Positions 17,365 through 50,471 of a stretch of 64,000 nt of DNA are shown here, piece after piece. Within the stretch, counting starts at the first letter, position 1, and the number at the start of each line of letters is the position of its first letter. The notes under the pieces are model-generated. The model searched no databases, was not told where the DNA came from, and saw only the letters and a program-made list of their open reading frames with translations. The DNA is from Chitinophagaceae bacterium. Lineage in GTDB: Bacteria; Bacteroidota; Bacteroidia; Chitinophagales; Chitinophagaceae. The translations under genes and the position numbers were made by a program. Where the stretch lies: NCBI GenBank assembly GCA_027489035.1, contig JAIYAN010000021.1, positions 124,001-188,000 on the forward strand. Reading direction: 5' to 3'.

Positions 17365-17877
17365 ATGCAAAATATCAACACACTACATCAGCTTTTAGAA
17401 GATGACATGAGAAAATTTATTGTGGCTGAAAAAACGCTACAACATACCATTCCATTATGGATAAAACTGGTTAATTCGGTGAAATTGAAAACCATACTTT
17501 TGAAATATTTCGATCAAATTAAAGACCATGTTACGCAAATGGATAAATATTTCGAATCGGAAGAATTGCAATTTGTGTATAATAATCACAAAGTGATGGC
17601 AACATTGGTTTCGGATTCAGAAGAACGAATTTTAAGATGTGAAGATTTTACGGTAAAAGATGCATGTATACTATCCTGTATTCAAAATATCAATCACTAT
17701 AAAATAGGCTGTTATGGAACAGCGGCAGCATTTTCCAATGTATTGGGCAAAACAAGTATTGGATTATTGTTTCATCAATTTGAAGTAAATGAAAAACAAA
17801 TTGATGATCGCCTTAGTCAGTTGGCAGAATATGAAATCAACAACCAAGCGATTATGCATTTGCCTTCAAATAAATAA
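17365..17877 (+). CDS. DUF892 / YciE-like ferritin-fold protein
   Basis: A 170-residue all-helical protein with the opening LHQLLEDDMRKFIVAEKTLQHTIP typical of DUF892 (YciE) proteins, a ferritin-like four-helix bundle often found in stress regulons. Later helices (HVTQMDKYFES, INHYKIGCYGTAAAFSNVLG) keep family-like Glu and His positions that could bind metal, although some ligands seem changed. It is the first rightward gene of the stress cluster; the BON protein follows 105 bp later. Confidence 0.78.
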   Translation: MQNINTLHQLLEDDMRKFIVAEKTLQHTIPLWIKLVNSVKLKTILLKYFDQIKDHVTQMDKYFESEELQFVYNNHKVMATLVSDSEERILRCEDFTVKDACILSCIQNINHYKIGCYGTAAAFSNVLGKTSIGLLFHQFEVNEKQIDDRLSQLAEYEINNQAIMHLPSNK

Positions 17878-17902
17878 AAAAACGTAAATCATTTAAGGTT
17901 AT

Positions 17903-17915
17903 AATGATTGTCATT
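17903..17915. promoter_or_regulatory. Short palindrome upstream of the BON gene
   Basis: AATGA-TTG-TCATT is a perfect 5-bp inverted repeat with a 3-base centre, about 68 bp before the BON gene. It could be an operator, but the length is near chance in such AT-rich DNA. Confidence 0.2.
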
Positions 17916-17982
17916 TTTTAAAATTTAGAATTTTAATTCCTTTGATTTAAACAAAAATATTAATCATTAAAATTAAAAACAC

Positions 17983-18657
17983 ATGAAAACAGACATTGAA
18001 ATTCAAAAAGACGTAGTAGAACAATTGAAATGGGAACCATTTTTAAACGCAGCGCAAATTGGTGTTGCAGTAAAAGATGGCATTGTAACATTATCGGGAC
18101 AAGTAGATGCTTATTCTAAAAAAGTATTGGCTGAAAAAACAGTAAAAAAAGTAGCGGGTGTAAAAGCAATTGCAGAAGATATACAAGTTGGCATTTCACC
18201 AGCATATAAAAAAACAGACACAGAAATCGCATTGGCAGTTGTGAATGCCATTAAATGGCACACCATGATTCCAGATGAAAAGATTAAAGTGAGTGTAGAA
18301 GATGGCAATGTAAAATTGGAAGGTGAGGTTGAATGGGAATATCAAAGAAATCAAGCAAAAACATCAATAGAAAATCTTATTGGCGTGCGATTTGTAACAA
18401 ATCTTATTGCAGTAAAGCCAAAAATTACACCCTATGAACTACAATTAAAAATCAATGCCAGTTTTCAAAGAAGCGCAAACATTGACGCTTCAAAAGTTAC
18501 AGCAGAAGTTATTGGAAGCAGGGTTATTTTAAGGGGCAAAGTGAGGTCATTTGCAGAACGTGAAGATGCAGAAAATGCAGTATGGTCAGCACCTGGAGTT
18601 ATTACCGTAGAAAATAAACTGGTTATTGAAGAGCCAGAATATGCTTTCGAAGATTAA
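17983..18657 (+). CDS. Triple BON-domain protein
   Basis: A 224-residue protein made of three BON domains of about 70 residues each. Each has the pattern DxxI-x-V-x-DG-x-V-x-L-x-G-x-V (VAVKDGIVTLSGQVDAYSKK, VSVEDGNVKLEGEVEWEYQR, AEVIGSRVILRGKVRSFAER), followed by a helix ending in a GVxxVxN-type turn. BON domains bind membranes or phospholipids and occur in OsmY-type stress proteins. No signal peptide is visible, unlike OsmY, so the protein may be cytoplasmic. A strong terminator follows. Confidence 0.92.
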   Translation: MKTDIEIQKDVVEQLKWEPFLNAAQIGVAVKDGIVTLSGQVDAYSKKVLAEKTVKKVAGVKAIAEDIQVGISPAYKKTDTEIALAVVNAIKWHTMIPDEKIKVSVEDGNVKLEGEVEWEYQRNQAKTSIENLIGVRFVTNLIAVKPKITPYELQLKINASFQRSANIDASKVTAEVIGSRVILRGKVRSFAEREDAENAVWSAPGVITVENKLVIEEPEYAFED

Positions 18658-18678
18658 GGCAATAATGACATTGATTTT

Positions 18679-18711
18679 AAAATCCCGTTTTTTGAAAACG
18701 GGATTTTTTTT
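18679..18711 (+). terminator. Strong intrinsic terminator after the BON gene
   Basis: A 13-bp perfect stem (AAAATCCCGTTTT / AAAACGGGATTTT) with a TTG loop ends in eight T. It is A-rich on its left side and so could act in both directions. Confidence 0.88.
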
Positions 18712-18791
18712 GATAATTAAAAAGTGAAAAATAAAAATTCAAAATCGTTGTCTATACTTTTCAAAAAGATTAATGAATTAAGGAATTAAAA

Positions 18792-19181
18792 TTACTTTCG
18801 AAGCATTTCGTTTAAAAATTCGTTACAATGAAACTTAACATTAATGTGATCTTGTTCCATTTTTTTAAATGAAATAGTAATCTCATTTTGCTTTTGTTCA
18901 ATTGATTTAGTCACCAATTTATCAGCCATTAAAATTTCATTTTCCGTCAAAAACTTTTTCCGTTCAAATATTATAATTCTTAATTCTTCAAATTTCTTTC
19001 TTGTGTTTTCTAAAATGAGTTGATGTACATCTGCTTTTGAGGCTATATCTACAATAGAATTTCTTTCAACTATTTCTTTTAACCTATATGAAAGGTTGGA
19101 AAGTTCTGTCATGTAAAATGAAATAGAATGCAACCAAGCGTTTAACTCATCATCATAAAAAGCAGTTATTTTTTTAGACAT
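18792..19181 (-). CDS. Hypothetical helical protein
   Basis: A 129-residue, highly charged, all-helical protein with two long amphipathic segments (about residues 50-85 and 95-125) and no signal peptide or membrane segment. I recognise no family. The heptad-like spacing of Leu, Ile and Phe suggests a helical bundle or coiled coil. It is the only leftward gene between the BON and Hsp20 genes. Confidence 0.65.
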   Translation of the reverse strand: MSKKITAFYDDELNAWLHSISFYMTELSNLSYRLKEIVERNSIVDIASKADVHQLILENTRKKFEELRIIIFERKKFLTENEILMADKLVTKSIEQKQNEITISFKKMEQDHINVKFHCNEFLNEMLRK

Positions 19182-19264
19182 ATCAATTTTGATTTTAAAT
19201 AAAAAAGGGAAACCCTTCTGTGTAAATAAAATGAAAAATGGAAAACAAAAACATGATATTAATT

Positions 19265-19280
19265 AAAAAAAAAAAAAAAA
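19265..19280. repeat. Homopolymeric A tract (16 A)
   Basis: An uninterrupted run of 16 A lies 61 bp before the Hsp20 start codon. Such a run is prone to slippage and could alter promoter spacing. Confidence 0.7.
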
Positions 19281-19341
19281 TAATCATAAAAATTAAAGCA
19301 ATAAAAAGATATTTTTAAAACAATAACCTAAAAAATATTTT

Positions 19342-19785
19342 ATGAAAAAAGACATCCAAACAACAGAAAAAAACGGTGTTTATCCAGGCAGTTTTGTACC
19401 TCAAAAGAATTCAGAAATATTCAAAAATGAAATTTCAAAAGACAAAAAAAAACACATCAAAAAGCCATTGGTTAATCTTATAGAGTCCAATCATTCTATT
19501 ATTTTGGAAATGGCCGTACCGGGTGTAAAACGTGAAGATTTTTTAATTGAAGTTAAAGACGACATACTAACAGTTCATGTTATGCATAAAGATGTTAATA
19601 AAGATTTTATTGCTTTTTCAATGCACGAATTTGATTGCAATAAATACAAACGCAGCATACAACTTCCTCCAAATGCGGATTATGCTTTTGTTAGTGCAAA
19701 ATATAACGATGGACTATTAACGATATATATCCCTAAAACAAATGAACCTTTTATAAATCAACAAAACACAATAATCGTTTATTAA
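19342..19785 (+). CDS. Hsp20 / alpha-crystallin small heat shock protein
   Basis: A 147-residue protein with an alpha-crystallin domain at about residues 45-135. The core reads HSIILEMAVPGVKREDFLIEVKDDILTVHV, then YKRSIQLPPNADYAFVSAKYNDGLLTIYIPK, which includes the family's xxGLLTIxIPK strand. It is an ATP-independent holdase for unfolding proteins. The phosphorylase homologue starts 9 bp downstream and the PLD gene directly after that, so the three form one operon. Confidence 0.92.
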   Translation: MKKDIQTTEKNGVYPGSFVPQKNSEIFKNEISKDKKKHIKKPLVNLIESNHSIILEMAVPGVKREDFLIEVKDDILTVHVMHKDVNKDFIAFSMHEFDCNKYKRSIQLPPNADYAFVSAKYNDGLLTIYIPKTNEPFINQQNTIIVY

Positions 19786-19794
19786 ACTTATTCA

Positions 19795-21444
19795 ATGCCA
19801 TTTACATTTAAGCATGATTATAAAATCGATGAAAATTACAAAACAAAAACTGCTTATTTCTGTATGGAGTTTGCATTAGACCAACCTTTAAAAACTTATG
19901 CTGGTGGATTGGGATTTTTGGCTGGCTCATTCATGAAAAGTGCATATGAACTCAATCAAAATATTGTAGGTATTGGGATATTATGGAAATATGGATATTA
20001 CAATCAAACCAGAAAACATGATCAAACAATGGATGTATTGTTTGAAGAAAAAAAATATGGATTTTTAATTGACACTAAAATAAAATTTGAAATTACCATA
20101 GCTGGTAAAGCAGTATGGGTAACCGCGTTTTACTTGCCATCTCATGTGTTTCAATCTGCGCCTATATTTTTTCTATCTACTGATTTACCTGAAAATGATT
20201 ATTTATCAAAAACAATTAGCCATAAACTTTACGATGCAAATCCAGAAACATCAATAGCTGCATCGATTTTACTGGGAGCAGGAGGTTCTAAATTCCTAGA
20301 TTTAATAAATTGGGAACCTGAGATTTACCACATGAATGAATCACATGCACTCCCTATTGGATTTTATCTTTTAAATAAATTCAAAGAAATCGACATAGTA
20401 AAAGCAAAATTGGTATATACCAATCACACCGCCGAAGATGCTGCCAATAAAGTATCGAGCATTGCATTACTCGTGAAAATGAGTTATTTCTGTGGCATAT
20501 CCTCAGATTATGTTTCTACTAATTTCACAAATGACAACGCTAATTTAAATCACACCTATGTTGCTTTGTTGTTATCTGGTAAAGCAAATGCCGTTTCTGA
20601 ATTGCACAAAAAAAAATTATTATCCATTTGGGGAAAGTACAACAATATTTGCCCGATACATTCCATTACCAATGCGCAAAACTTCAAATTTTGGCATAAT
20701 GAATGTTTGTATAAAGCAGTTAAAAATAATGACATTAATGAGTTTGAAAATGAAAAGAAAAAATGCAAACAAAAGCTTTTTGAAATAGTAGCCGATCAGT
20801 GTGGAGAAATTTATGATGAAAATATTTGCACATTGGTTTTTGCTAAAAGATTCGCTTCATATAAACGTGCAGATTTACTTTTAAATAATATGGATCGGTT
20901 TTTAAAAATCATTAACAATGAAAAATATCCTGTACAAATCATTTGGGCAGGAAAACCTTATCCAATGGATTATTTCGGAATAGGCATTTTTGATAAAATA
21001 GTAAACATTTGTAAATCATACTATAATTGCTCAATTCTTGTTGGTTATGAAATCAGTTTGTCGAAAAGTTTAAAATTTGGTTCTGATGTTTGGCTGAATA
21101 CCCCTCGAATTGGCCATGAAGCATCTGGTACAAGTGGAATGTCTGCATCAATGAATGGCGCTATTAATATTGGCATACAAGATGGTTGGTTTCCTGAATT
21201 TGCAAAAAATGAAGAAAATGCATTTGTAATTAACGCCTGTGAAAATTGTTTGCCTGATATTTTACAAGATGAAAAAGATGCAGAAAATCTATACTCGATT
21301 TTAGAAAATGAAGTGATTCCAATGTATTATGAAAATCGTGAAAAATGGTTTGAAATCACCAAAAAAAGTATGCTTGATATTTTGCCCAACTTTGATAGCA
21401 ATAGAATGGCTAGAGCATATTATGATACTTTATACGCTAAATAA
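19795..21444 (+). CDS. Alpha-glucan phosphorylase family protein lacking the PLP lysine
   Basis: A 549-residue member of the short bacterial alpha-glucan/glycogen phosphorylase group. The N-terminus has the family motifs AYFCMEFAL and KTYAGGLGFLAGSF; later come YHMNESHA, VFAKRFASYKRADLL (nucleotide-sugar-like site) and HEASGTSGM. In catalytic members EASGTSGM is followed by Lys, which carries pyridoxal phosphate; here codon 450 is TCT (Ser), giving GMSASMNGAINIGIQDGW. The protein may be inactive, may use another mechanism, or may act as a glycosyltransferase or regulator. It sits between Hsp20 and the PLD gene in one operon. Confidence 0.85.
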   Translation: MPFTFKHDYKIDENYKTKTAYFCMEFALDQPLKTYAGGLGFLAGSFMKSAYELNQNIVGIGILWKYGYYNQTRKHDQTMDVLFEEKKYGFLIDTKIKFEITIAGKAVWVTAFYLPSHVFQSAPIFFLSTDLPENDYLSKTISHKLYDANPETSIAASILLGAGGSKFLDLINWEPEIYHMNESHALPIGFYLLNKFKEIDIVKAKLVYTNHTAEDAANKVSSIALLVKMSYFCGISSDYVSTNFTNDNANLNHTYVALLLSGKANAVSELHKKKLLSIWGKYNNICPIHSITNAQNFKFWHNECLYKAVKNNDINEFENEKKKCKQKLFEIVADQCGEIYDENICTLVFAKRFASYKRADLLLNNMDRFLKIINNEKYPVQIIWAGKPYPMDYFGIGIFDKIVNICKSYYNCSILVGYEISLSKSLKFGSDVWLNTPRIGHEASGTSGMSASMNGAINIGIQDGWFPEFAKNEENAFVINACENCLPDILQDEKDAENLYSILENEVIPMYYENREKWFEITKKSMLDILPNFDSNRMARAYYDTLYAK

Positions 21445-22617
21445 ATGAAAACACATGCTCAGTTATCGCCAACTAATTCAAACACTGCGAAGCTAATAAA
21501 CAGTGGTAGAATTTATTTTGACACGTTGACAGAATTAATTCGAAAATCTGAGTCAAGTATTTTTTTACAAACGTATATTTTAAAAGATGATGAAACTGGT
21601 AATTTGATTGCAGATGAACTAATACAGGCTGCTAAAAGAAAAGTGAAAATTTATATTATATTAGATGGTTTTGCATCTCGCAATTTGCATGAATCATTTA
21701 TAGACAATTTAAAGTCAGTAGGTATTGAGTTATTGTTTTTCAAACCCGTTTTTAAAAACAACCATGTTTATTATAGTAGAAGAATGCACCACAAAATTGT
21801 AGTAGTAGATGGAAGATTTTCTTTAATAGGGGGATTGAATATTGCAAATAGATACAACGAAATCAACAACCATAAAGCCTGGCTTGATTTTGCAGTGTTA
21901 ATAGAAGGAGAAGCTTCGCTACAAGTAGAAAATTACTGCAAACAAGTAAGATTAAAAACAACCAAAATAGAAATTGAAACAAATTCGGAAATCATCAATC
22001 GATTTTATGAAATACCAGTAGACAATCATTGCATGGTTAAAATCAGGAGAAATGATTGGCTAATGCATTTAAATGAAATTTCTTCAAACTACATAGAAAT
22101 GCTTCGCAACGCTAATCATGAAGTTTTAATCCTTTGTAGCTATTTCATTCCAGGTAAAGTGTTGAGAAGATCAATGGCTAATGCATCTAGAAGAGGCGTT
22201 AAAATAACCGTAATTACTGCAGGACAATCGGATGTGCCATTAACCAAAAATGCGGAAAGATGGCTTTATGATTGGTTGCTTCGAAATAACATAAAAATAT
22301 ATGAATATCAAAAAAACGTGCTTCATGGCAAATTAGCGGTAAGCGATCAAACTAATGTCACTATTGGCTCCTACAATATTAATAATTTAAGTACTTATGT
22401 ATGTTTAGAATTAAATGCAGAAATAAAAAACAAACTATTTGCACAAAACGTACAAAATACACTATTAGAAATCATTGAAAAAGAGTGTATTGAAATCAAT
22501 TCGAAATATCACCATCATCAAAAAAACTGGTTGAATCAATTTTTTAGATGGTGCAGTTATCATTTATTGAGATTTGTTTTGTTGATATTTACCTTCAATT
22601 TAAAGAGAGAAAATTAA
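21445..22617 (+). CDS. Phospholipase D superfamily protein (cardiolipin synthase-like)
   Basis: A 390-residue protein with two HKD catalytic motifs. The first is HHKIVVVDGRFSLIGGLNI (about residues 113-131), the second HGKLAVSDQTNVTIGSYNIN (about residues 294-313). The pair forms the active site that condenses phosphatidylglycerol in bacterial cardiolipin synthases. No N-terminal membrane segments precede the first domain; a hydrophobic C-terminal stretch (LLRFVLLIFTFNL) may attach it to the membrane. Its ATG follows the phosphorylase stop with no gap. Its stop overlaps the convergent hydrolase gene by 4 bp. Confidence 0.88.
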   Translation: MKTHAQLSPTNSNTAKLINSGRIYFDTLTELIRKSESSIFLQTYILKDDETGNLIADELIQAAKRKVKIYIILDGFASRNLHESFIDNLKSVGIELLFFKPVFKNNHVYYSRRMHHKIVVVDGRFSLIGGLNIANRYNEINNHKAWLDFAVLIEGEASLQVENYCKQVRLKTTKIEIETNSEIINRFYEIPVDNHCMVKIRRNDWLMHLNEISSNYIEMLRNANHEVLILCSYFIPGKVLRRSMANASRRGVKITVITAGQSDVPLTKNAERWLYDWLLRNNIKIYEYQKNVLHGKLAVSDQTNVTIGSYNINNLSTYVCLELNAEIKNKLFAQNVQNTLLEIIEKECIEINSKYHHHQKNWLNQFFRWCSYHLLRFVLLIFTFNLKREN

Positions 22618-23624
22618 TTCCCCATTATTCTTTTAAAAAAGAAAATGGATTCACTCAAATTCCATGCTTCAAACCGTCCGCGTTGCACGACCAATTTATT
22701 CTCTTCTGGATGCTGAATGAAATAATGAAATACAAATTCACTTTGAGGATTACGCCATCCTAAAACCTGTCCGAATCGTAAATCATTAAACACTAGGGTA
22801 TTTTTAGTTTTTTTAATCGTGTAATAATCATCAGAGAATCGAATTAATTTTTGCAATGCTTCGTGATTATCAACGCTATCAATATAATTTGAATTTTGTT
22901 TGAATCGAGAAAAATGAATCTTATATGATTGGTCTAAAATGGAGTAATATCCAATATCAAAACCATCCTTTTTTTTCACAACAATGTACCATAAGAAATT
23001 TTGAAATGGAGCTGGTGTAGTGAAATAGGAAATGTGTTTTTCTGTTGATTGTAAAATATTATTTTTTACTTGATAATCAACAATAACCTTATTAAATATG
23101 CCAAATAAAACATAAAACAACGGTGTAAACAAACCCAATTTCCACCAACGGCTTCTTTTTAAATGATAGGCATTTAAACCAATTAAAAACACAAATGAAA
23201 CCAAAGGCATAATGGAAAAAAATGGATCAGCCACATAAATAATATTGAATGAAAATCGTTTGTGTGAAAAAGGTTCGAGCCAACCAATTCCATAATTATT
23301 GAAGGAATCAATTAATAAATGAATGGAGATCTCAACTAAAAAAAAGAGTAGCCATTTGGAGAATCTAATATTATGCGGGCGATGCACTTTATCTGCAATT
23401 AATGCAAAAATTGGAACCAATAAAATCATGAATAAGAAAGAGTGGGTAAACCCACGATGTGCCAATAATGCAGAAGGCGTATCCATCCAAAAATTAGCAA
23501 TAAAATCTATGTCAGGAATACTTTGTGCTAGAGCGCCCCAAAACATTGCTTTTTTTCCAAACCCTTTTTCAAAAAAAGCTTCACCCACACAGGCACCCAA
23601 TGCAATATGTGTGAATGAATCCAT
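22614..23624 (-). CDS. YdjM-type membrane-bound metal-dependent hydrolase
   Basis: A 336-residue protein opening MDSFTHIALGACVGEAFF, followed by AQSIPDIDF and LAHRGFTHSFLF, the signature of the LexA-regulated membrane-bound metal-dependent hydrolase family (YdjM). The Asp and His residues in these motifs are the predicted metal ligands. Four or five hydrophobic segments follow in the middle. The C-terminal 150 residues are soluble. It lies 11 bp after a universal stress gene and is probably the last gene of that operon. Confidence 0.88.
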   Translation of the reverse strand: MDSFTHIALGACVGEAFFEKGFGKKAMFWGALAQSIPDIDFIANFWMDTPSALLAHRGFTHSFLFMILLVPIFALIADKVHRPHNIRFSKWLLFFLVEISIHLLIDSFNNYGIGWLEPFSHKRFSFNIIYVADPFFSIMPLVSFVFLIGLNAYHLKRSRWWKLGLFTPLFYVLFGIFNKVIVDYQVKNNILQSTEKHISYFTTPAPFQNFLWYIVVKKKDGFDIGYYSILDQSYKIHFSRFKQNSNYIDSVDNHEALQKLIRFSDDYYTIKKTKNTLVFNDLRFGQVLGWRNPQSEFVFHYFIQHPEENKLVVQRGRFEAWNLSESIFFFKRIMGN

Positions 23625-23635
23625 TTTTTTAATAA

Positions 23636-24475
23636 TTATTTGTTGTGTGCAATAAACAAAGGCATTTCAAATGCATTAACCAAAGCGTCTGCCATACTAG
23701 ATCTAAACCATCTCGATAACTTCGATCTTCTATATGCTCCAATTACTGTAACAAAACTTAATGATTCATTTTGAAGATGTTTTATAATTTCTATTTCTGG
23801 TATCCCTTTTAAAACGGTAAAACTAATATTTGAAAAATGTCTTTTCATTAATTCTTTTAAAAGTTTGTTTTCGGGAAGATGGTTATTATCTTCCATTGGT
23901 TTAATCGATATCACTTCAATGGGCATGTTAATATGCGAAGACATTAAATAAGCAAACATTTTTAAAGCATACACTGAACTTGATTTTCCATCAAATAAAA
24001 AAATTACTTTTTGAAATTCATTGAAGGTATTTGGTGTTAAAAAAACAGGGCATTGCGCATTGCTTAAAACATCTTGTAAAAATCGACTGGGATATTTTTC
24101 TTCGTGATGATTAAATGTTATAGACTTATTTAAAATTAATAAATCTGCAAAAATGCTTTCGTGTAATAACGCTGAAAGGGCGATATTTTTATCATGATGA
24201 ATATTAAAAGACAATTTTTTTTCCGTACAAATTTGATTAAATTCACTTGCTGAGGTTCGCCTTTTATAATTGTCGTTTTCTTTTAATTGATGTAATTTCT
24301 TTTCAGATACACCCTGATCAAAAACCAAGTCATAAATTTTATAACTGGTGTAGGAATGATCATCTAAAAAAACACCAGTTAAATGCGATTTTAATATTTT
24401 TGATAAATAAACCGCATAATCAGCAGTGGACTCAATAGGCTTTAAACCATCAAAAGCAGCAATAATCTTGTTCAT
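23636..24475 (-). CDS. Universal stress protein, two-domain (second copy)
   Basis: A 279-residue tandem UspA-type protein. The N-terminal half begins MNKIIAAFDGLKPIESTADYAVYLSKIL, and the second begins FQKVIFLFDGKSSSVYALKMFAYL. The end, FVTVIGAYRRSKLSRWFRSSMADALV, occupies the place of the usual ATP-binding GxxGxxxxxxxxGS loop but lacks most of its glycines. The second gene of an operon, 12 bp behind a paralogue of the same length. Confidence 0.9.
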   Translation of the reverse strand: MNKIIAAFDGLKPIESTADYAVYLSKILKSHLTGVFLDDHSYTSYKIYDLVFDQGVSEKKLHQLKENDNYKRRTSASEFNQICTEKKLSFNIHHDKNIALSALLHESIFADLLILNKSITFNHHEEKYPSRFLQDVLSNAQCPVFLTPNTFNEFQKVIFLFDGKSSSVYALKMFAYLMSSHINMPIEVISIKPMEDNNHLPENKLLKELMKRHFSNISFTVLKGIPEIEIIKHLQNESLSFVTVIGAYRRSKLSRWFRSSMADALVNAFEMPLFIAHNK

Positions 24476-24487
24476 ACAAGTTTCAAT

Positions 24488-25312
24488 TTATTTATGACTA
24501 ATAAAAATGGGTAGCTGATGTTCGCTGATGACTTCCATCAAGAAACTTTTTTTAAAAAATTGAGAAAAAGATGTTCTTCCAAAAGAACCAGCAATTAATA
24601 TAGAAGTCTTTCTATCTGCAATCCAGGTTGAAAAATATTTTCTTGAATCTATATCCAACTTTGATACGGTTAAATCTGTAAAATGCCTGGAGGCCAATTC
24701 TTCAATGTATTTCTCATTTGGAATAGCAGAATCCTCATCCTGATTGGCATACGTTAACAATGTAGGATTCTTTGTTAATTCTGGAAGAAGATATACGAAC
24801 TGTTTTATAGCAAATACAGACGATTCGCTTCCATCGTAGGCAATAATATTTATAGATGGGAAATCGTATTTTTCAGGAACTACAATAATCGGACATTCTA
24901 TACTTTGAATCGCTTCTTTTAAATAATTATTGGGATTGCCTGAACCCATATTTTCATAAAACTTCTCCTCCCCTATGATTAAAAGATCAGCAAACCTAGA
25001 TTCTTTTTTTAATTCGGGTAATGCCAAATCATTTAAGTCTTTATGGGTACGATACTCTATGTGATTTTTCACACAAAGTGCTTCAAATTTTTTCACATTC
25101 TTTTCAATTACCTCCATATCATCATCTTCTAATAAAGGAAGAAAATTGGGTGTGCTCATTCCATCAGCATAACTCCATAAATTGGCATAACTAATTTGAG
25201 GTAAAAAAACACCAGTTAATAATATTGGATTCATCGCATTTAATTTGTTGGCAAAATCAAAAGCGGCATCCGAAAAATGGATTCCATCAAAAGCGAGTAG
25301 TATCTTTTTCAT
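24488..25312 (-). CDS. Universal stress protein, two-domain (first copy)
   Basis: A 274-residue UspA-type protein with the same layout as its downstream paralogue. The first half opens MKKILLAFDGIHFSDAAFDFANKL, the second INIIAYDGSESSVFAIKQFVYLL, and the end reads ILIAGSFGRTSFSQFFKKSF. It leads the leftward operon of two universal stress genes and the YdjM-type gene. A well-spaced Bacteroidetes-type promoter lies directly upstream, on the other side of the small-RNA repeats from pfkB. Confidence 0.92.
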   Translation of the reverse strand: MKKILLAFDGIHFSDAAFDFANKLNAMNPILLTGVFLPQISYANLWSYADGMSTPNFLPLLEDDDMEVIEKNVKKFEALCVKNHIEYRTHKDLNDLALPELKKESRFADLLIIGEEKFYENMGSGNPNNYLKEAIQSIECPIIVVPEKYDFPSINIIAYDGSESSVFAIKQFVYLLPELTKNPTLLTYANQDEDSAIPNEKYIEELASRHFTDLTVSKLDIDSRKYFSTWIADRKTSILIAGSFGRTSFSQFFKKSFLMEVISEHQLPIFISHK

Positions 25313-25327
25313 AATTTTTAGTTTTTA

Positions 25328-25358
25328 CAAACATAGCTTGGAGCATTGTTGTGTCAAA
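25328..25358 (-). promoter_or_regulatory. Bacteroidetes-type promoter for the universal stress operon
   Basis: On the minus strand a -33 TTTG (25355-25358) and a -7 TATGTTTG (25328-25335) are 19 bp apart, matching the TTTG-N19/21-TAnnTTTG consensus. Transcription would begin within about 10 bases of the ATG at 25312. Confidence 0.65.
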
Positions 25359-25415
25359 TAACATAAATCATGTTTTAAATAGACGCGCATCATGTTTCAC
25401 CATAAAACACAACTC

Positions 25416-25423
25416 TATTTTTG
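25416..25423 (+). promoter_or_regulatory. -7 promoter element of small RNA copy 1
   Basis: TATTTTTG matches TAnnTTTG. Upstream, CATCATGTTTCACCATAAA at 25389-25407 is conserved in the other copies and may replace a standard -33 box. Confidence 0.6.
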
Positions 25424-25429
25424 TTTCGG

Positions 25430-25485
25430 GTTTTTCATATAGGATATTGGATAAAACGAGCTGGATTTCTATCCGGCTTTTTTTT
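25430..25485 (+). ncRNA. Putative small RNA, copy 1
   Basis: The predicted RNA of about 56 nt starts about 7 bases after the -7 box. The 5' part can fold as GUUUU...AAAAC enclosing AUAU-AGG-AUAU. The 3' part is an intrinsic terminator: AGCUGGAU paired with AUCCGGCU around a UUCU loop (25459-25478), then a run of eight T that begins at the last base of the stem. GGAU occurs three times and AUCC once, so alternative pairings exist. No coding potential is seen. I know no described RNA family matching it. Confidence 0.7.
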
Positions 25486-25608
25486 ATAAATTAAAAATTG
25501 AAAAGTAAAAAGTAAAAAAAGTGAATCGATAATTTTGAATATTGAATTTCTAGTTTAAAATCATCGATTGACCAAACGACCATCATATTTCACCATAAAT
25601 CAACACCC

Positions 25609-25616
25609 TATTTTTG
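25609..25616 (+). promoter_or_regulatory. -7 promoter element of small RNA copy 2
   Basis: TATTTTTG matches TAnnTTTG. The shared upstream block is CATCATATTTCACCATAAA at 25581-25599. Confidence 0.6.
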
Positions 25617-25622
25617 TTTCGG

Positions 25623-25683
25623 GTTTTTCATATAGGATATTGGATAAAAACGAGCTGGATTTCTATCCGGCTCTCTTTTTTTT
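25623..25683 (+). ncRNA. Putative small RNA, copy 2
   Basis: Same body as copy 1 with one additional A. The terminator is longer: a 9-bp stem GAGCTGGAT / ATCCGGCTC with a TTCT loop (25652-25673), then TC and eight T. Confidence 0.7.
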
Positions 25684-25789
25684 AAATAAAATCGAATGAA
25701 CAATTTCAACTTTTTACTTTTAAATTTTTAATTTATCGTAATCATCGATTGAACTAACGGCCATCATGTTTACCCATAAAACAACTACC

Positions 25790-25797
25790 TACTTTTG
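25790..25797 (+). promoter_or_regulatory. -7 promoter element of small RNA copy 3
   Basis: TACTTTTG matches TAnnTTTG even though it differs from copies 1 and 2 at the third base, a position that is free in the consensus. The upstream block is CATCATGTTTACCCATAAA at 25762-25780. Confidence 0.6.
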
Positions 25798-25803
25798 TTT
25801 CGG

Positions 25804-25862
25804 GTTTTTCATATAGGATATTGGATAAAACGAGCTGGATTTCTATCCGGCTCTCTTTTTTT
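25804..25862 (+). ncRNA. Putative small RNA, copy 3
   Basis: Same body as copy 1 and same extended terminator as copy 2 (stem 25832-25853, then TC and seven T). It ends about 30 bp before the separate pfkB promoter, so it is not a leader of pfkB unless the terminator is read through. Confidence 0.7.
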
Positions 25863-25893
25863 AAAAAAATAAACACATCAAATCAACAATTTT

Positions 25894-25901
25894 TAATTTT
25901 G
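25894..25901 (+). promoter_or_regulatory. Putative -7 promoter element for pfkB
   Basis: TAATTTTG matches TAnnTTTG and lies 28 bp before the pfkB start codon, downstream of the third small-RNA terminator. No clear -33 box. Confidence 0.45.
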
Positions 25902-25929
25902 GCTTTTTAGTTTTAACTTAAATGAAAAA

Positions 25930-26871
25930 ATGAAAAATATAATAACCATTACTTTAAACCCTGCAATTGATAAAAGCACTTCTATTTCAGAATTGGTTCC
26001 TGAGAAAAAATTAAAATGTCAAAATCCGAAGTTTGAACCGGGAGGCGGAGGAATAAATGTATCAAGGGTTTTACAAAGACTAAACAATAAATCAAAAGCA
26101 TTATATTTTGAAGGCGGATTTTCTGGAAAATTTTTTAGTCAATTGATTCATGATGAAAATATAGAAACTATACCAATTGAAATAAAAAGTAACACACGAG
26201 AAAACTTTATCGTTTTTGATCAAAAAACGAATTTGCAATATCGTTTTGGCATGCCAGGACCAGAAGTCAATAAAAATGAAACGGATCAATTAATACATGT
26301 TCTTGAACAAATAGAAGAGATAGATTACTTGGTTTTAAGTGGAAGTATGCCTTCTAATTTTGATGAAAATGTAGTTAGTCAAATTGCATCGATTTGTAAA
26401 AATAAAAATGCAAAATTTATTATTGATACATCAGGACCTGCATTAAAAAATCATTTAAAAGAAAATGTATTTTTAATCAAACCCAATATTAATGAACTAG
26501 CAACCTTAGCAGGATTGGATTCCATTTCAATTGATGAGGTTTCAACAGTTGGTAAAAATTTAATTGCCACAGAAAAATGTGAAGCAATCTGTGTTTCGTT
26601 AGGTGCTAAAGGTGCAATGTTGATCACAAAAGATTCAGTCAATATCATTACACCTCCGAAAGTAAACACAATAAGTACAGTTGGCGCTGGAGATAGCATG
26701 TTGGCTGGTATTGTACACAAATTATCTATTGGTGAAGATTTACAAAACGCCGTAAAGTTTGGTGTGTCTTGTGGAACAGCTGCCACATTAAATCCAGGAA
26801 CCGAACTTTGTCATTTAGAAGATGTTGAAAGAATTCTACAACAAGTTTCCATTTCATCAGAAACCACCTAG
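25930..26871 (+). CDS. PfkB-type hexose-phosphate kinase (1-phosphofructokinase / Pfk-2 family)
   Basis: A 313-residue PfkB-family sugar kinase. It opens IITITLNPAIDKSTSI, as in 1-phosphofructokinases and Pfk-2, with PGGGGINVSRVLQRL at the substrate site, then VLSGSMPSNF, FLIKPNINELATLAG and the C-terminal signature TVGAGDSMLAGIVHKLSIG containing the catalytic Asp. It phosphorylates fructose 6-phosphate, fructose 1-phosphate or tagatose 6-phosphate; these cannot be separated by eye. Placement beside universal stress genes suggests a minor Pfk-2-type enzyme used under energy limitation. Confidence 0.88.
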   Translation: MKNIITITLNPAIDKSTSISELVPEKKLKCQNPKFEPGGGGINVSRVLQRLNNKSKALYFEGGFSGKFFSQLIHDENIETIPIEIKSNTRENFIVFDQKTNLQYRFGMPGPEVNKNETDQLIHVLEQIEEIDYLVLSGSMPSNFDENVVSQIASICKNKNAKFIIDTSGPALKNHLKENVFLIKPNINELATLAGLDSISIDEVSTVGKNLIATEKCEAICVSLGAKGAMLITKDSVNIITPPKVNTISTVGAGDSMLAGIVHKLSIGEDLQNAVKFGVSCGTAATLNPGTELCHLEDVERILQQVSISSETT

Positions 26872-26989
26872 TTTCAAATCATTACAACAACTGATTTTAC
26901 TCATTTTGTCTTTTCTATGATGGGATTATTTTCGCTGTAATATATTATTGCAATCGAAAAACATTTAATCACATTTTAAAAAATTAATC

Positions 26990-27235
26990 ATGGAAAAGAA
27001 CAACAAAGTACTAATCTCTTTGGGCATAGGACTAGCAGTAGGCACGGTGCTCGGAATTTTATTTGCACCTAACAAAGGTGTTGACACTAGAAAAAAAATT
27101 AAAGATACTGGAACTAAATTGTCTGATGACTTAACAAAGTCAGTAACAAAAATTAAAGAATCTGTTCAAGGATTTAAAAACAACGTAAAAGAAAAAGTGG
27201 ATGGTGTTGTGGGTTCTGTAAACGATTACATTTAA
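26990..27235 (+). CDS. YtxH-like small stress protein
   Basis: An 81-residue protein with one N-terminal hydrophobic segment rich in glycine (LISLGIGLAVGTVLGILFAP), followed by NKGVDTRKKIKDTGTKLSDDL and an amphipathic Lys/Val-rich helix. This is the YtxH (general stress protein) pattern. It probably sits in the inner membrane with the helix in the cytoplasm. It is 11 bp upstream of a holin-like gene. Confidence 0.85.
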   Translation: MEKNNKVLISLGIGLAVGTVLGILFAPNKGVDTRKKIKDTGTKLSDDLTKSVTKIKESVQGFKNNVKEKVDGVVGSVNDYI

Positions 27236-27246
27236 TAGCAAACTCA

Positions 27247-27597
27247 ATGGAAAAATCAATTGAAAAAATAGAAGAACTCGCAAAAAATACGAGCTTATAT
27301 TTTAAACATCACGTTTCATTAATAAAATTAGAAGCTGCTGAAAAAACTTCTAAGATTATGAGTAACGGAATTAGTTTGATTTTTATTTCTATGATTTTTT
27401 TTCTATTTGCATTTTTCTTCGGACTAGCGCTAGCCGTCATGCTGCAATATATCGTAGGCGAATTATACCTTGCATTACTTATTGTTGCTGGATTTTATGG
27501 ATTAATTGGAGTCATCCTTTGGAAGTTTAGAAATAAATTAATTCGCATCCCAATTATGAATTCAATTCTGCATGAGCTTTTTAAAGATGCCGACTAA
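27247..27597 (+). CDS. Holin-superfamily-like small membrane protein
   Basis: A 116-residue protein with an N-terminal amphipathic helix (IEELAKNTSLYFKHHVSLIKLEAAEKTSKIMS) and two long hydrophobic segments at about residues 41-64 and 71-92. This matches the Holin-X/phage-holin-3-6 type of chromosomal membrane protein that accompanies YtxH proteins in many bacteria. Despite the family name there is no sign of a phage. It ends at a terminator. Confidence 0.8.
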   Translation: MEKSIEKIEELAKNTSLYFKHHVSLIKLEAAEKTSKIMSNGISLIFISMIFFLFAFFFGLALAVMLQYIVGELYLALLIVAGFYGLIGVILWKFRNKLIRIPIMNSILHELFKDAD

Positions 27598-27614
27598 ATT
27601 TGAAACATTTTTTC

Positions 27615-27663
27615 AATTGGGTAATTGACTTTTATATCCGTAAAAGCATTACCCAATTTTTTT
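27615..27663 (+). terminator. Intrinsic terminator after the YtxH/holin-like operon
   Basis: AATTGGGTAAT pairs with ATTACCCAATT around a 22-base loop that itself contains CTTTTA/TAAAAG. The hairpin runs into seven T. Confidence 0.75.
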
Positions 27664-27692
27664 GAAATATTTTTTTAAATTAAATTATACCA

Positions 27693-27986
27693 ATGCCATC
27701 ATTTAAAAACATAACAGAACTTAAGTTAGAGAAAAGCAGGTTACTACTAGAAATCAACGACATTGAAAAGGAAATGCATCAAAATTGGCATGATCTGAAA
27801 ACCAGTGTAAAGCCATCTAATATTTTAAAACAAATTATTGCAACGATAATCGAAAACAAAACAAGTGAACATTCGAGTTTTTTTTCTAACAGCAATAAAT
27901 CAGGATCCTTTAAAACATTTTCAAATATTTCAAAGCTAATAAAAATTAATCTCGCTAATAAAATTAAAGATTGGATTTATGCTTAA
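27693..27986 (+). CDS. Small hypothetical protein
   Basis: A 97-residue soluble protein. The first 45 residues are a likely helix with charged heptads (NITELKLEKSRLLLEINDIEKEMHQNWHDLKTSVKPS). The rest is polar and ends in basic residues. It overlaps the next gene by 8 bp, suggesting coupled translation. The start of this pattern resembles small proteins that accompany YtxH and holin-like genes, but I recognise no named family. Confidence 0.6.
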   Translation: MPSFKNITELKLEKSRLLLEINDIEKEMHQNWHDLKTSVKPSNILKQIIATIIENKTSEHSSFFSNSNKSGSFKTFSNISKLIKINLANKIKDWIYA

Positions 27987-28560
27987 TGGAAACATCAAAA
28001 TAATCAAAAACCTTATTTTCTTTTGTATTGTCGTATTTTTAGAAAACTGTTATTCATCAGTGATAACAAATACTTGGCAAGCTGAAGATTCGAATAAAAA
28101 AATGATAAAAAAAGTATTGGTACTGGCTATTGACAACAATAAAGACAGAACCATTAGGGTCAAATTGGAAAATCATTTGGTGAACGATTTGACTAGAAAA
28201 GGAATTGATGCTTTCTCCGCTATTGAAAGTTACGGACCATTTTTTTTATCAGGATTGCAAGAAACAGAAGCAATCAATAAAATTAAAGGTCAAGGATTTG
28301 ACGGCGTTCTAACCGTTGTATTATTAGACAAAGAAAAAGAAAAACACTACATCCCTGGCAGAATAACATATACGCCCTATTCCATGTATTACAGAAGGTT
28401 TTGGGGATATTATTCAACAGTTTACGAACGTGTATATGAACCTGGATATTACATTGAAAACACCAACTATTTCTGGGAAAGCAATCTGTATGATTTATCA
28501 GATAAATCCCTGATTTATTCTGCACAAACTAAATCTTTTGATTCAAATAATTTGGAATAA
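27979..28560 (+). pseudogene. DUF4136-like lipoprotein, interrupted by an in-frame stop
   Basis: The open frame gives 193 residues with an N-terminal hydrophobic segment and a lipobox-like LENC. The body resembles DUF4136-like lipoproteins (KKVLVLAID..., LVNDLTRKGIDAFSAI, FDGVLTVVLLDKEK). After the TAA at 28558-28560 the same frame continues without interruption as LADEYGKIISNDLFKKGILH and stops at 28621-28623. That is the expected C-terminal helix of such proteins. The TAA therefore looks like a recent nonsense change removing about 21 residues. The protein may still be made in shortened form. Confidence 0.6.
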
Positions 28561-50395: not shown

Positions 50396-50471
50396 AAAAC
50401 TAAATTAATGAAATTTATTGATAAACTTAAGTAAACAATCATTTCGAAATTTAATTGTAATCATTAAAATA

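Follow-up and report, generated by a model that had tools for sequence, protein, structure and literature searches.

Which kind of element are the three near-identical repeats that lie between a Usp-like gene and a pfkB-family gene in the window (the whole 64,000-nucleotide stretch of DNA analysed), and what could an array of three copies do at this place?

Three tandem units between a Usp-like gene and pfkB

A repeat search and alignment of the window gave direct repeats at 25366-25495, 25559-25688 and 25740-25869, which hold three co-oriented promoter–body–terminator units (25416–25862, + strand). Upstream of the array lies a divergent Usp-like gene (24488-25312, - strand), which has no Pfam match itself and was named from its likeness, by eye, to the neighbour gene at 23636-24475, for which a weak Usp Pfam match was found (22.5 bits compared to a cutoff of 24). 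Downstream is a gene for a pfkB-family kinase (25930-26871, + strand; Pfam PF00294), homologues of which stand beside the arrays of two other genomes, G586 and G587.

Each unit consists of a TAnnTTTG box, a GGG start region, a body TTTTTCATATAGGATATTGGATA(A)AAAC, and a 9-bp stem with a TTCT loop followed by 7-8 T. The -7 box is TATTTTTG in copies a (25416-25423, +) and b (25609-25616, +) and TACTTTTG in copy c (25790-25797, +), and its position fits the family promoter profile in all three. From the GGG start to the end of the T run, the predicted sRNAs of copies a, b and c were found to be approximately 58, 63 and 61 nt long (25428-25485, 25621-25683 and 25802-25862, all +), and in addition to their alignment they scored 75.4, 80.7 and 78.9 bits, respectively, with the covariance model R1. 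The body, GGGTTTTTCATATAGGATATTGGATA(A)AAACGAGCTGGATTTCTATCC, is the same in all three copies except for one A. It contains the conserved 5' seed in a variant with two additional bases, TTTTTCATATAGGATATTGGAT, at 25431-25452, 25624-25645 and 25805-25826 (+), as located by pattern search and aligned hits. The terminator hairpin and T run of copy a occupy 25458-25485 (+; fold prediction and covariation), and the hairpins of copies b and c 25652-25673 (+; fold prediction) and 25832-25853 (+), respectively. By fold prediction only, the 5' half is unpaired or weakly paired and the terminator is the single hairpin. GGAU occurs three times in each RNA, twice in the 5' core and once in the terminator stem. 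A small ORF in the units was considered and rejected because the linker differs, by eye, by single bases between copies, so that no frame is kept.

These findings confirm the three tandem units, the TTCT-loop hairpin with its T run and the threefold GGAU that an earlier note had described from the same DNA. Its statement that the DNA between the units is divergent was correct in part, but approximately 75 bp upstream of each start can be aligned among the three copies and contain a direct repeat, ATCAT-N17-ATCAT, at 25367-25393, 25560-25586 and 25741-25767 (+), which may be a regulator site.

No family of Rfam 15 matched the array at the gathering cutoff. We interpret the array, with moderate confidence, as three copies of a trans-acting sRNA of a multicopy family, the start-codon seed of which would block translation as in FopS and GibS. 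Tandem sibling sRNAs with near-identical copies and separate promoters occur in a different phylum as LhrC and Qrr, to which the array is likened by description and not by sequence.

A multicopy family in Chitinophagaceae and phages

The approximately 20-nt 5' core, TTTTTCATAGGATATTGGAT, was found nine times in the genome from which the window comes compared to zero for the reversed pattern, so the repeat goes beyond chance; two of the nine matches, at contig ends, may stem from a single copy that was assembled twice. A DNA search of the same genome recovered five further copies: contigs C16 and C2 each have two at their start, and C21 has one. The pattern search added one at C20:264892. The C16 copies adjoin a gene that we read as queA-like, and the C2 copies one that we read as Ldh2-like. 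A single array may have broken the assembly at these two contig starts, in which case the first copies are possibly the same physical copy. This second tandem set at the C16 and C2 ends leaves the copy number of the genome uncertain in both directions. R1, built from eight copies of this genome, gave 11 matches in it at E<=0.01; the two of these that lie at contig ends may represent a single copy. A second model, R2, likewise gave 11; the remaining two are C10:71460 and C2:30922, which belong to a sister type, GTTTTCATAGGGTACGGAT.

Several related or neighbouring elements were also observed. The sister sRNA type, GTTTTCATAGGGTACGGATTAAAA, which has a terminator of its own, is present in the same genome (G000) at C10:71460-71525 (L294) and C2:30922-30985 (L295), and in G070 (L299) and G087 (L301); the C10 copy lies between genes that we take to be accD and smpB. 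A third type, GGTTTTTCATAGGATATGGTTAA, was found in G014, from another genus of the family (L271 1501-1573, and L298); its terminator differs and reads AGCTGTTGTCTAACAGCT in L271. At C4:62604-62662 (-) there is a further seed-bearing sRNA candidate, GTGTTTTTCATAGGTTAGCAACGG plus a terminator, with a FopS-like GUG start. Upstream of a queA-like gene, L004:1501-1554 (-) gave a sub-threshold match to the queA RNA RF03093 (26.6 bits compared to a cutoff of 52.6).

Among genomes of the same family, R1 matches were found in 143 of 195, in 77 of 101 genera, at E<=0.01, with up to 13 per genome. The best E was <=1.1e-6 in 127 of the 195 (counted from the table), and 16 of the 143 positive genomes had only weak matches, with best E from 1.6e-4 to 0.0065, a range in which matches outside the family were mostly plain terminators. 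R2, built from 41 matches (set A4), was positive in 36 of 395 genomes of the class, eight of which are of the same family. The full core was absent from the 22 loci examined among the 28 R2-positive genomes outside the family, and most of these were plain terminators. Partial likeness to the core, such as TTCATAG or TTTTTCATA, was present in L272 (G865, 43.8 bits), L280 (G740, 33.5 bits) and L289; L272 and L280 come from one genus outside the family and are possibly distant relatives or chance matches. In a pattern scan of named genomes, GTTTTTCATAGGATATTGGAT occurred in at least 119 stretches, and the 80 matches listed came from Chitinophagaceae, from genera that we place in it, or from MAGs labelled Chitinophagales, Chitinophagia, Sphingobacteriales or Bacteroidetes/Bacteroidota. 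They include Niastella, Flavihumibacter, Ferruginibacter, Terrimonas, Puia, Chitinophaga, Foetidibacter and Cnuella, all of which we take to be Chitinophagaceae. From this we take Chitinophagaceae to be the family of the window as well. Some loci in these counts may be one genome represented twice. No published account of this sRNA family was found among the titles and abstract openings listed for Chitinophagaceae RNA, multicopy Bacteroidetes sRNA, phage sRNA and FopS/GibS, a literature with few subscription journals.

Within the family the core is nearly constant, and the letters of the linker and terminator vary. Core columns were 94-100% constant in 112 R2 matches (108 distinct), a value overstated by ascertainment in that 80 of 96 loci had been fetched through an exact core match; the 41 A4 matches, selected by covariance model and thus themselves chosen by score, show similar constancy. 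In the upstream profile a T-A-T-T/C-T-T-T-G/A box lies 14-7 nt ahead of TTTTTCA, which GG directly precedes. The strict TAnnTTT box was present at the fixed spacing in 60 of 148 upstream sequences, compared to a mean of 2.4 and a maximum of 8 in 200 shuffles, and GG was at the expected place in 144 of the 148. In an alignment that was fitted to the structure, the terminator stem had 87 double-changed cells compared to 21.6 in shuffles, and eight double-changed pairs compared to 6.5, with two of the nine pairs mostly unpaired. In A4, 13 double-changed cells were found compared to 5.7 in shuffles. Of 153 copies, 149 are intergenic. By these features the element would belong to the general kind of intergenic, intrinsically terminated trans sRNAs with their own promoter and a covarying stem. 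The earlier proposal of independently transcribed small-RNA units is supported by the box in 60 of the 148 upstream sequences, the covarying stem and the 143 positive family genomes; neither absence from relatives nor random substitution across the body was found.

As judged from the alignments, the window copies form a sub-branch, marked by two extra core bases, by the ATCAT pair in the promoter and by the position of the array upstream of pfkB. TTTTTCATATAGG was present in eight of 153 aligned matches, all in pfkB-type arrays (the window, G586 and G587) or at the contig ends L238 (G587) and L239 (G580), and two G586 copies carry TTTTTCACATAGG. An array in the same orientation upstream of pfkB was found in G586 (four copies, one decayed) and in G587 (three). 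L238 and L239 adjoin MlaD-like and ABC genes that, as we read them, resemble those flanking the G586 array, and a partial Usp-like match lies approximately 4 kb from the array in G586. Linkage to pfkB in relatives, which the earlier note had named as possible support, is seen in G586 and G587, both of the same genus as the window, at two of 129 loci; pfkB was not found at the other 127, where the flanks extend a few kb only. Across 11 aligned promoters from four genomes, the TCAT and ATCA columns are invariant, and the main repeat letters recur in relatives. The paired ATCA repeat was present in eight of 10 promoters of the pfkB-type branch compared to four of 138 others, the branch promoters being related by descent and the counts therefore not independent. 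Of the ATCAT pairs in 27% of the genome, those at the three array promoters and one at 50438 are intergenic; the 15 other sites were inside genes.

The family is also carried by phages. Two viral contigs have the full unit: L206, 59 kb long, with ligase, endolysin-like and phosphoesterase families, and L207, 236 kb long, with baseplate and ribonucleotide reductase domains. On other viral contigs the 5' GGTTTTTCATAGGATAT or the sister core is followed by different 3' halves and terminators (L372, L375, L374, L361/L362/L373, L363/L366 and L382). A terminase is on the same stretch as the sRNA-like unit in L372 and adjoins it in L382, where the core falls within a predicted ORF; an integrase adjoins it in L374, a DnaB helicase is on the same stretch in L363, and two proteins tested from L375 gave no PHROG match. 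The viral scan was keyed on the 5' letters, and only promoter and terminator count there as independent evidence. R2 matched at the site in 11 of 28 viral loci, approximately eight distinct sequences, and 17 of the 28 were not counted as RNA: L357, L359, L360, L364, L367-L371, L376, L378, L379 and L381 were read as the start of a phage gene, and L358, L365, L377 and L380, with no visible terminator, were excluded. Further weak R2 matches were seen at L363:1391 and L373:2242.

Likeness to FopS and other readings of the array

The earlier note knew of no described family that matches. That statement is not supported: the 5' end, size and architecture resemble those of FopS and GibS, though below the Rfam cutoff for FopS. 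FopS is a 14-member sRNA family of B. thetaiotaomicron, approximately 65-70 nt long, to which the RRM protein RbpB binds; the 5' seed of FopS pairs at SusC mRNA starts, and the family is conserved in Bacteroidaceae and present in one phage, according to the available text of Rüttiger et al. 2025 (PMC11697453). FopS (RF04319) and the present family are alike in size (58-63 nt predicted here), in an unstructured 5' seed with GUUUUUCAU and a single terminator hairpin (here by prediction), in a Bacteroidetes promoter, in their multicopy state (12-15 FopS copies; here up to 13 matches), in phage carriage and in RRM-1 proteins encoded in the genome. In contrast, the seed continues as AGGAUAUUGGAU here and as GGUAUUAGAU in FopS, the terminator sequences differ, and the present family forms tandem arrays, belongs to another bacterial family and shows no strong complementarity to SusC starts. 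The family thus appears to resemble FopS in kind, with its own sequence unmatched at the Rfam cutoffs and a different seed continuation and terminator. Below the cutoff several Rfam families match more than one copy (MicC, for example, all three); FopS was chosen by the analyst because it is the one among them from Bacteroidota that begins in register with the seed.

That the RNAs are true FopS orthologues by common descent with the same job, repression of SusC-type transporters together with RbpB, is doubtful. The common 5' GUUUUUCAU..UAUURGAUUU, similar size, promoter class, multicopy state and phage carriage are in its favour, as far as the available text of PMC11697453 describes FopS. When the family consensus was compared to the FopS 5' end, a score of 33 was obtained, reached by one of 3000 family shuffles and four of 1500 FopS shuffles; the window variant scored 24, which was reached by 106 of 3000 and 74 of 1500, respectively. 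Against FopS R1', GUGUUUUUCAUGGUAUUAGAU, the GUUUUUCAU part is identical and the rest of the consensus can be aligned with gaps and one substitution. On 27 FopS-seed loci, R2 gave 27 weak matches (E 0.04-9.7), of which 15, in 15 loci, were on the seed and the right strand; the 27 include near-identical loci, and of six checked against the Rfam cutoff five were accepted. One bridging pattern recovered both families in 22 of 395 genomes of the phylum sample compared to single matches in two genomes for the reversed control, and six loci obtained with it (L074-L079) are clearly not the RNA.

Against common descent, the FopS model aligned full-length to the array with only 19.8 bits (copy b) and 18.8 bits (copy c) compared to a gathering cutoff of 56. 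In the same genome no FopS match exceeded the cutoff, the best being 28.4 bits at an unrelated gene end, and among the 150 of 522 candidates scored, the model placed the C4 candidate at rank 2 (22.4 bits) and a single known copy at rank 12 (16.3 bits). No match at E<=10 was found in 20 loci of relatives, and outside the family the 22 loci examined in R2-positive genomes lack the full core. Nor did SusC starts give a good match to the seed: duplex energies were -6.1 to -10.9 for five full genes, near the sample mean of -7.8, and for SusC and 13 further TonB-receptor matches no strong seed match was found at first-Met starts (best, -12.9). A short seed could also be convergent.

It is unlikely that the array serves as a protein sponge, the three GGAU motifs of each RNA titrating an RNA-binding protein, for example of the RRM-1 type, as CsrB and RsmZ, which also carry several GGA motifs, titrate CsrA. 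The two RRM-1 genes found in the genome are consistent with it, as are the retention of the stem GGAU and of the two core GGAU motifs in most A4 rows (41 in total) and the binding of FopS by the RRM protein RbpB given in the available text of PMC11697453. However, in the sister copies and in most phage copies the 5' UUUUCAUAGG is retained and at least one GGAU is missing, which fits a seed better than a repeated protein motif. A CsrA-type reading of the GGAU motifs, for which the earlier note had suggested protein binding, is unsupported: a search of the genome for CsrA (PF02599) gave zero matches, with the control positive in three of 14 named genomes.

A selfish or passively duplicating REP-like repeat with no regulatory role is very improbable. 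Tandem copies with a unit spacing of 132-289 nt occur in 16 of 130 loci (own count), several arrays sit at contig ends, and phages carry copies, all of which such a repeat might do; yet the seed is nearly constant where linker and terminator vary with compensatory changes, and the promoter box recurs at a fixed spacing. Co-oriented arrays precede pfkB in three genomes of the genus, that of the window among them, as would suit a leader or attenuator acting in cis on the pfkB operon, with terminators acting on read-through into pfkB. This is the least probable of these readings because, in the intergenic cases among the 153 copies, the next downstream gene lies on the opposite strand 99 times and on the same strand 43 times, and every unit is equipped with a promoter box and terminator of its own.

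Proposed mechanism and candidate targets

The sequence itself shows the family, its units, the promoter box, the covariation of the terminator, the conservation of the seed and the sub-branch. Under the preferred reading, a trans-acting sRNA with a start-codon seed, we infer transcription, pairing, repression, a protein partner and a signal as follows. Each copy would be transcribed from its own TAnnTTTG promoter, starting at or beside GG(G) and ending at the intrinsic terminator. The first 20 nt or so, (G)GUUUUUCAUAGGAUAUUGGAU, would form a mostly single-stranded seed, the antisense start-codon part of which, UUUUUCAU, may pair with AUGAAAAA at the translation starts of a few mRNAs and block initiation; the second half of the RNA would choose the targets. 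The 5' part of the seed is the exact complement of AUGAAAAAC, in which lysine and asparagine codons come after a start codon, as in FopS. Blocking at the start codon is the simplest reading because of these seed letters and the analogy with FopS and GibS. The 5' single-stranded seed of GibS (RF04182) pairs around the start codons of its targets, and GibS differs from the present RNAs in its length of approximately 145 nt, two further hairpins and a non-canonical promoter, according to the available text of Ryan et al. 2020 (PMC7366714). No GibS match was found on the sRNA strand of the array, and the opposite strand gave only 13.1 bits.

Either of the two RRM-1 genes could encode an RbpB-like partner, and an RRM-1 protein is perhaps bound. 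The many copies would set the dose and let different promoters feed one seed. The window array probably answers a specific signal because it has its own paired ATCAT promoter element and two extra seed bases, and that signal is plausibly stress, given the Hsp20, Usp-like and YtxH neighbours.

Around the array, the window holds a stress-type cluster at 17365-28560 with DUF892, BON, Hsp20, phosphorylase, phospholipase-D (PLD), Usp-like, pfkB and YtxH genes. The stress signal is suggested by the Hsp20, BON, DUF892, phospholipase-D, phosphorylase and YtxH domain genes among them.

With the mechanism proposed here, multicopy sRNAs of the start-codon type would no longer be confined to gut Bacteroides but extend to a second large group of Bacteroidota. 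Host loci, tandem arrays, sister seeds and phage copies make up a natural series with a nearly constant seed amid mostly variable sequence, so that the function of the seed and the reason for its carriage by phages could be studied in cultured genera, among them Niastella, Flavihumibacter and Terrimonas. Niastella caeni carries two copies in tandem (L118). More tentatively, FopS and this family may be two branches of an ancient Bacteroidota system of multicopy, phage-exchanged sRNAs with an invariant antisense start-codon 5' end (UUUUUCAU against AUGAAAAA) and a variable, target-choosing half. Phages would carry copies of their own and with them reset the translation of the host during infection. 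If so, the second branch, GUUUUCAUAGGGUACGGAU, one copy of which is beside the gene that we read as smpB, and the phage variants would be differently aimed versions.

When the seed was paired with the starts of 678 predicted genes (approximately 27% of the genome), the energies were no better than those of shuffled seeds. The 16-nt seed complement gave 81 matches in the whole genome, six of which are exact sRNA copies, compared to 58 for the reversed control; among the 75 non-exact matches, 39 ATG-like ones were ranked and 28 ATG-bearing sites were examined, and five of these look like gene starts. With the 20-nt complement and three mismatches, no target was found in 20 genomes, where the matches include sRNA copies and the reversed control gave seven in all. 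In the window, ATATTTTATGAAAAAA at the Hsp20 start (19335-19350, start at 19342) pairs at 15 of 16 nt with the family core when two G-U pairs are allowed, which is not significant alone and makes Hsp20 a possible target. One of the better single candidates is a gene at C3:343395-344624, presumably of MFS type, with a start energy of -18.8.
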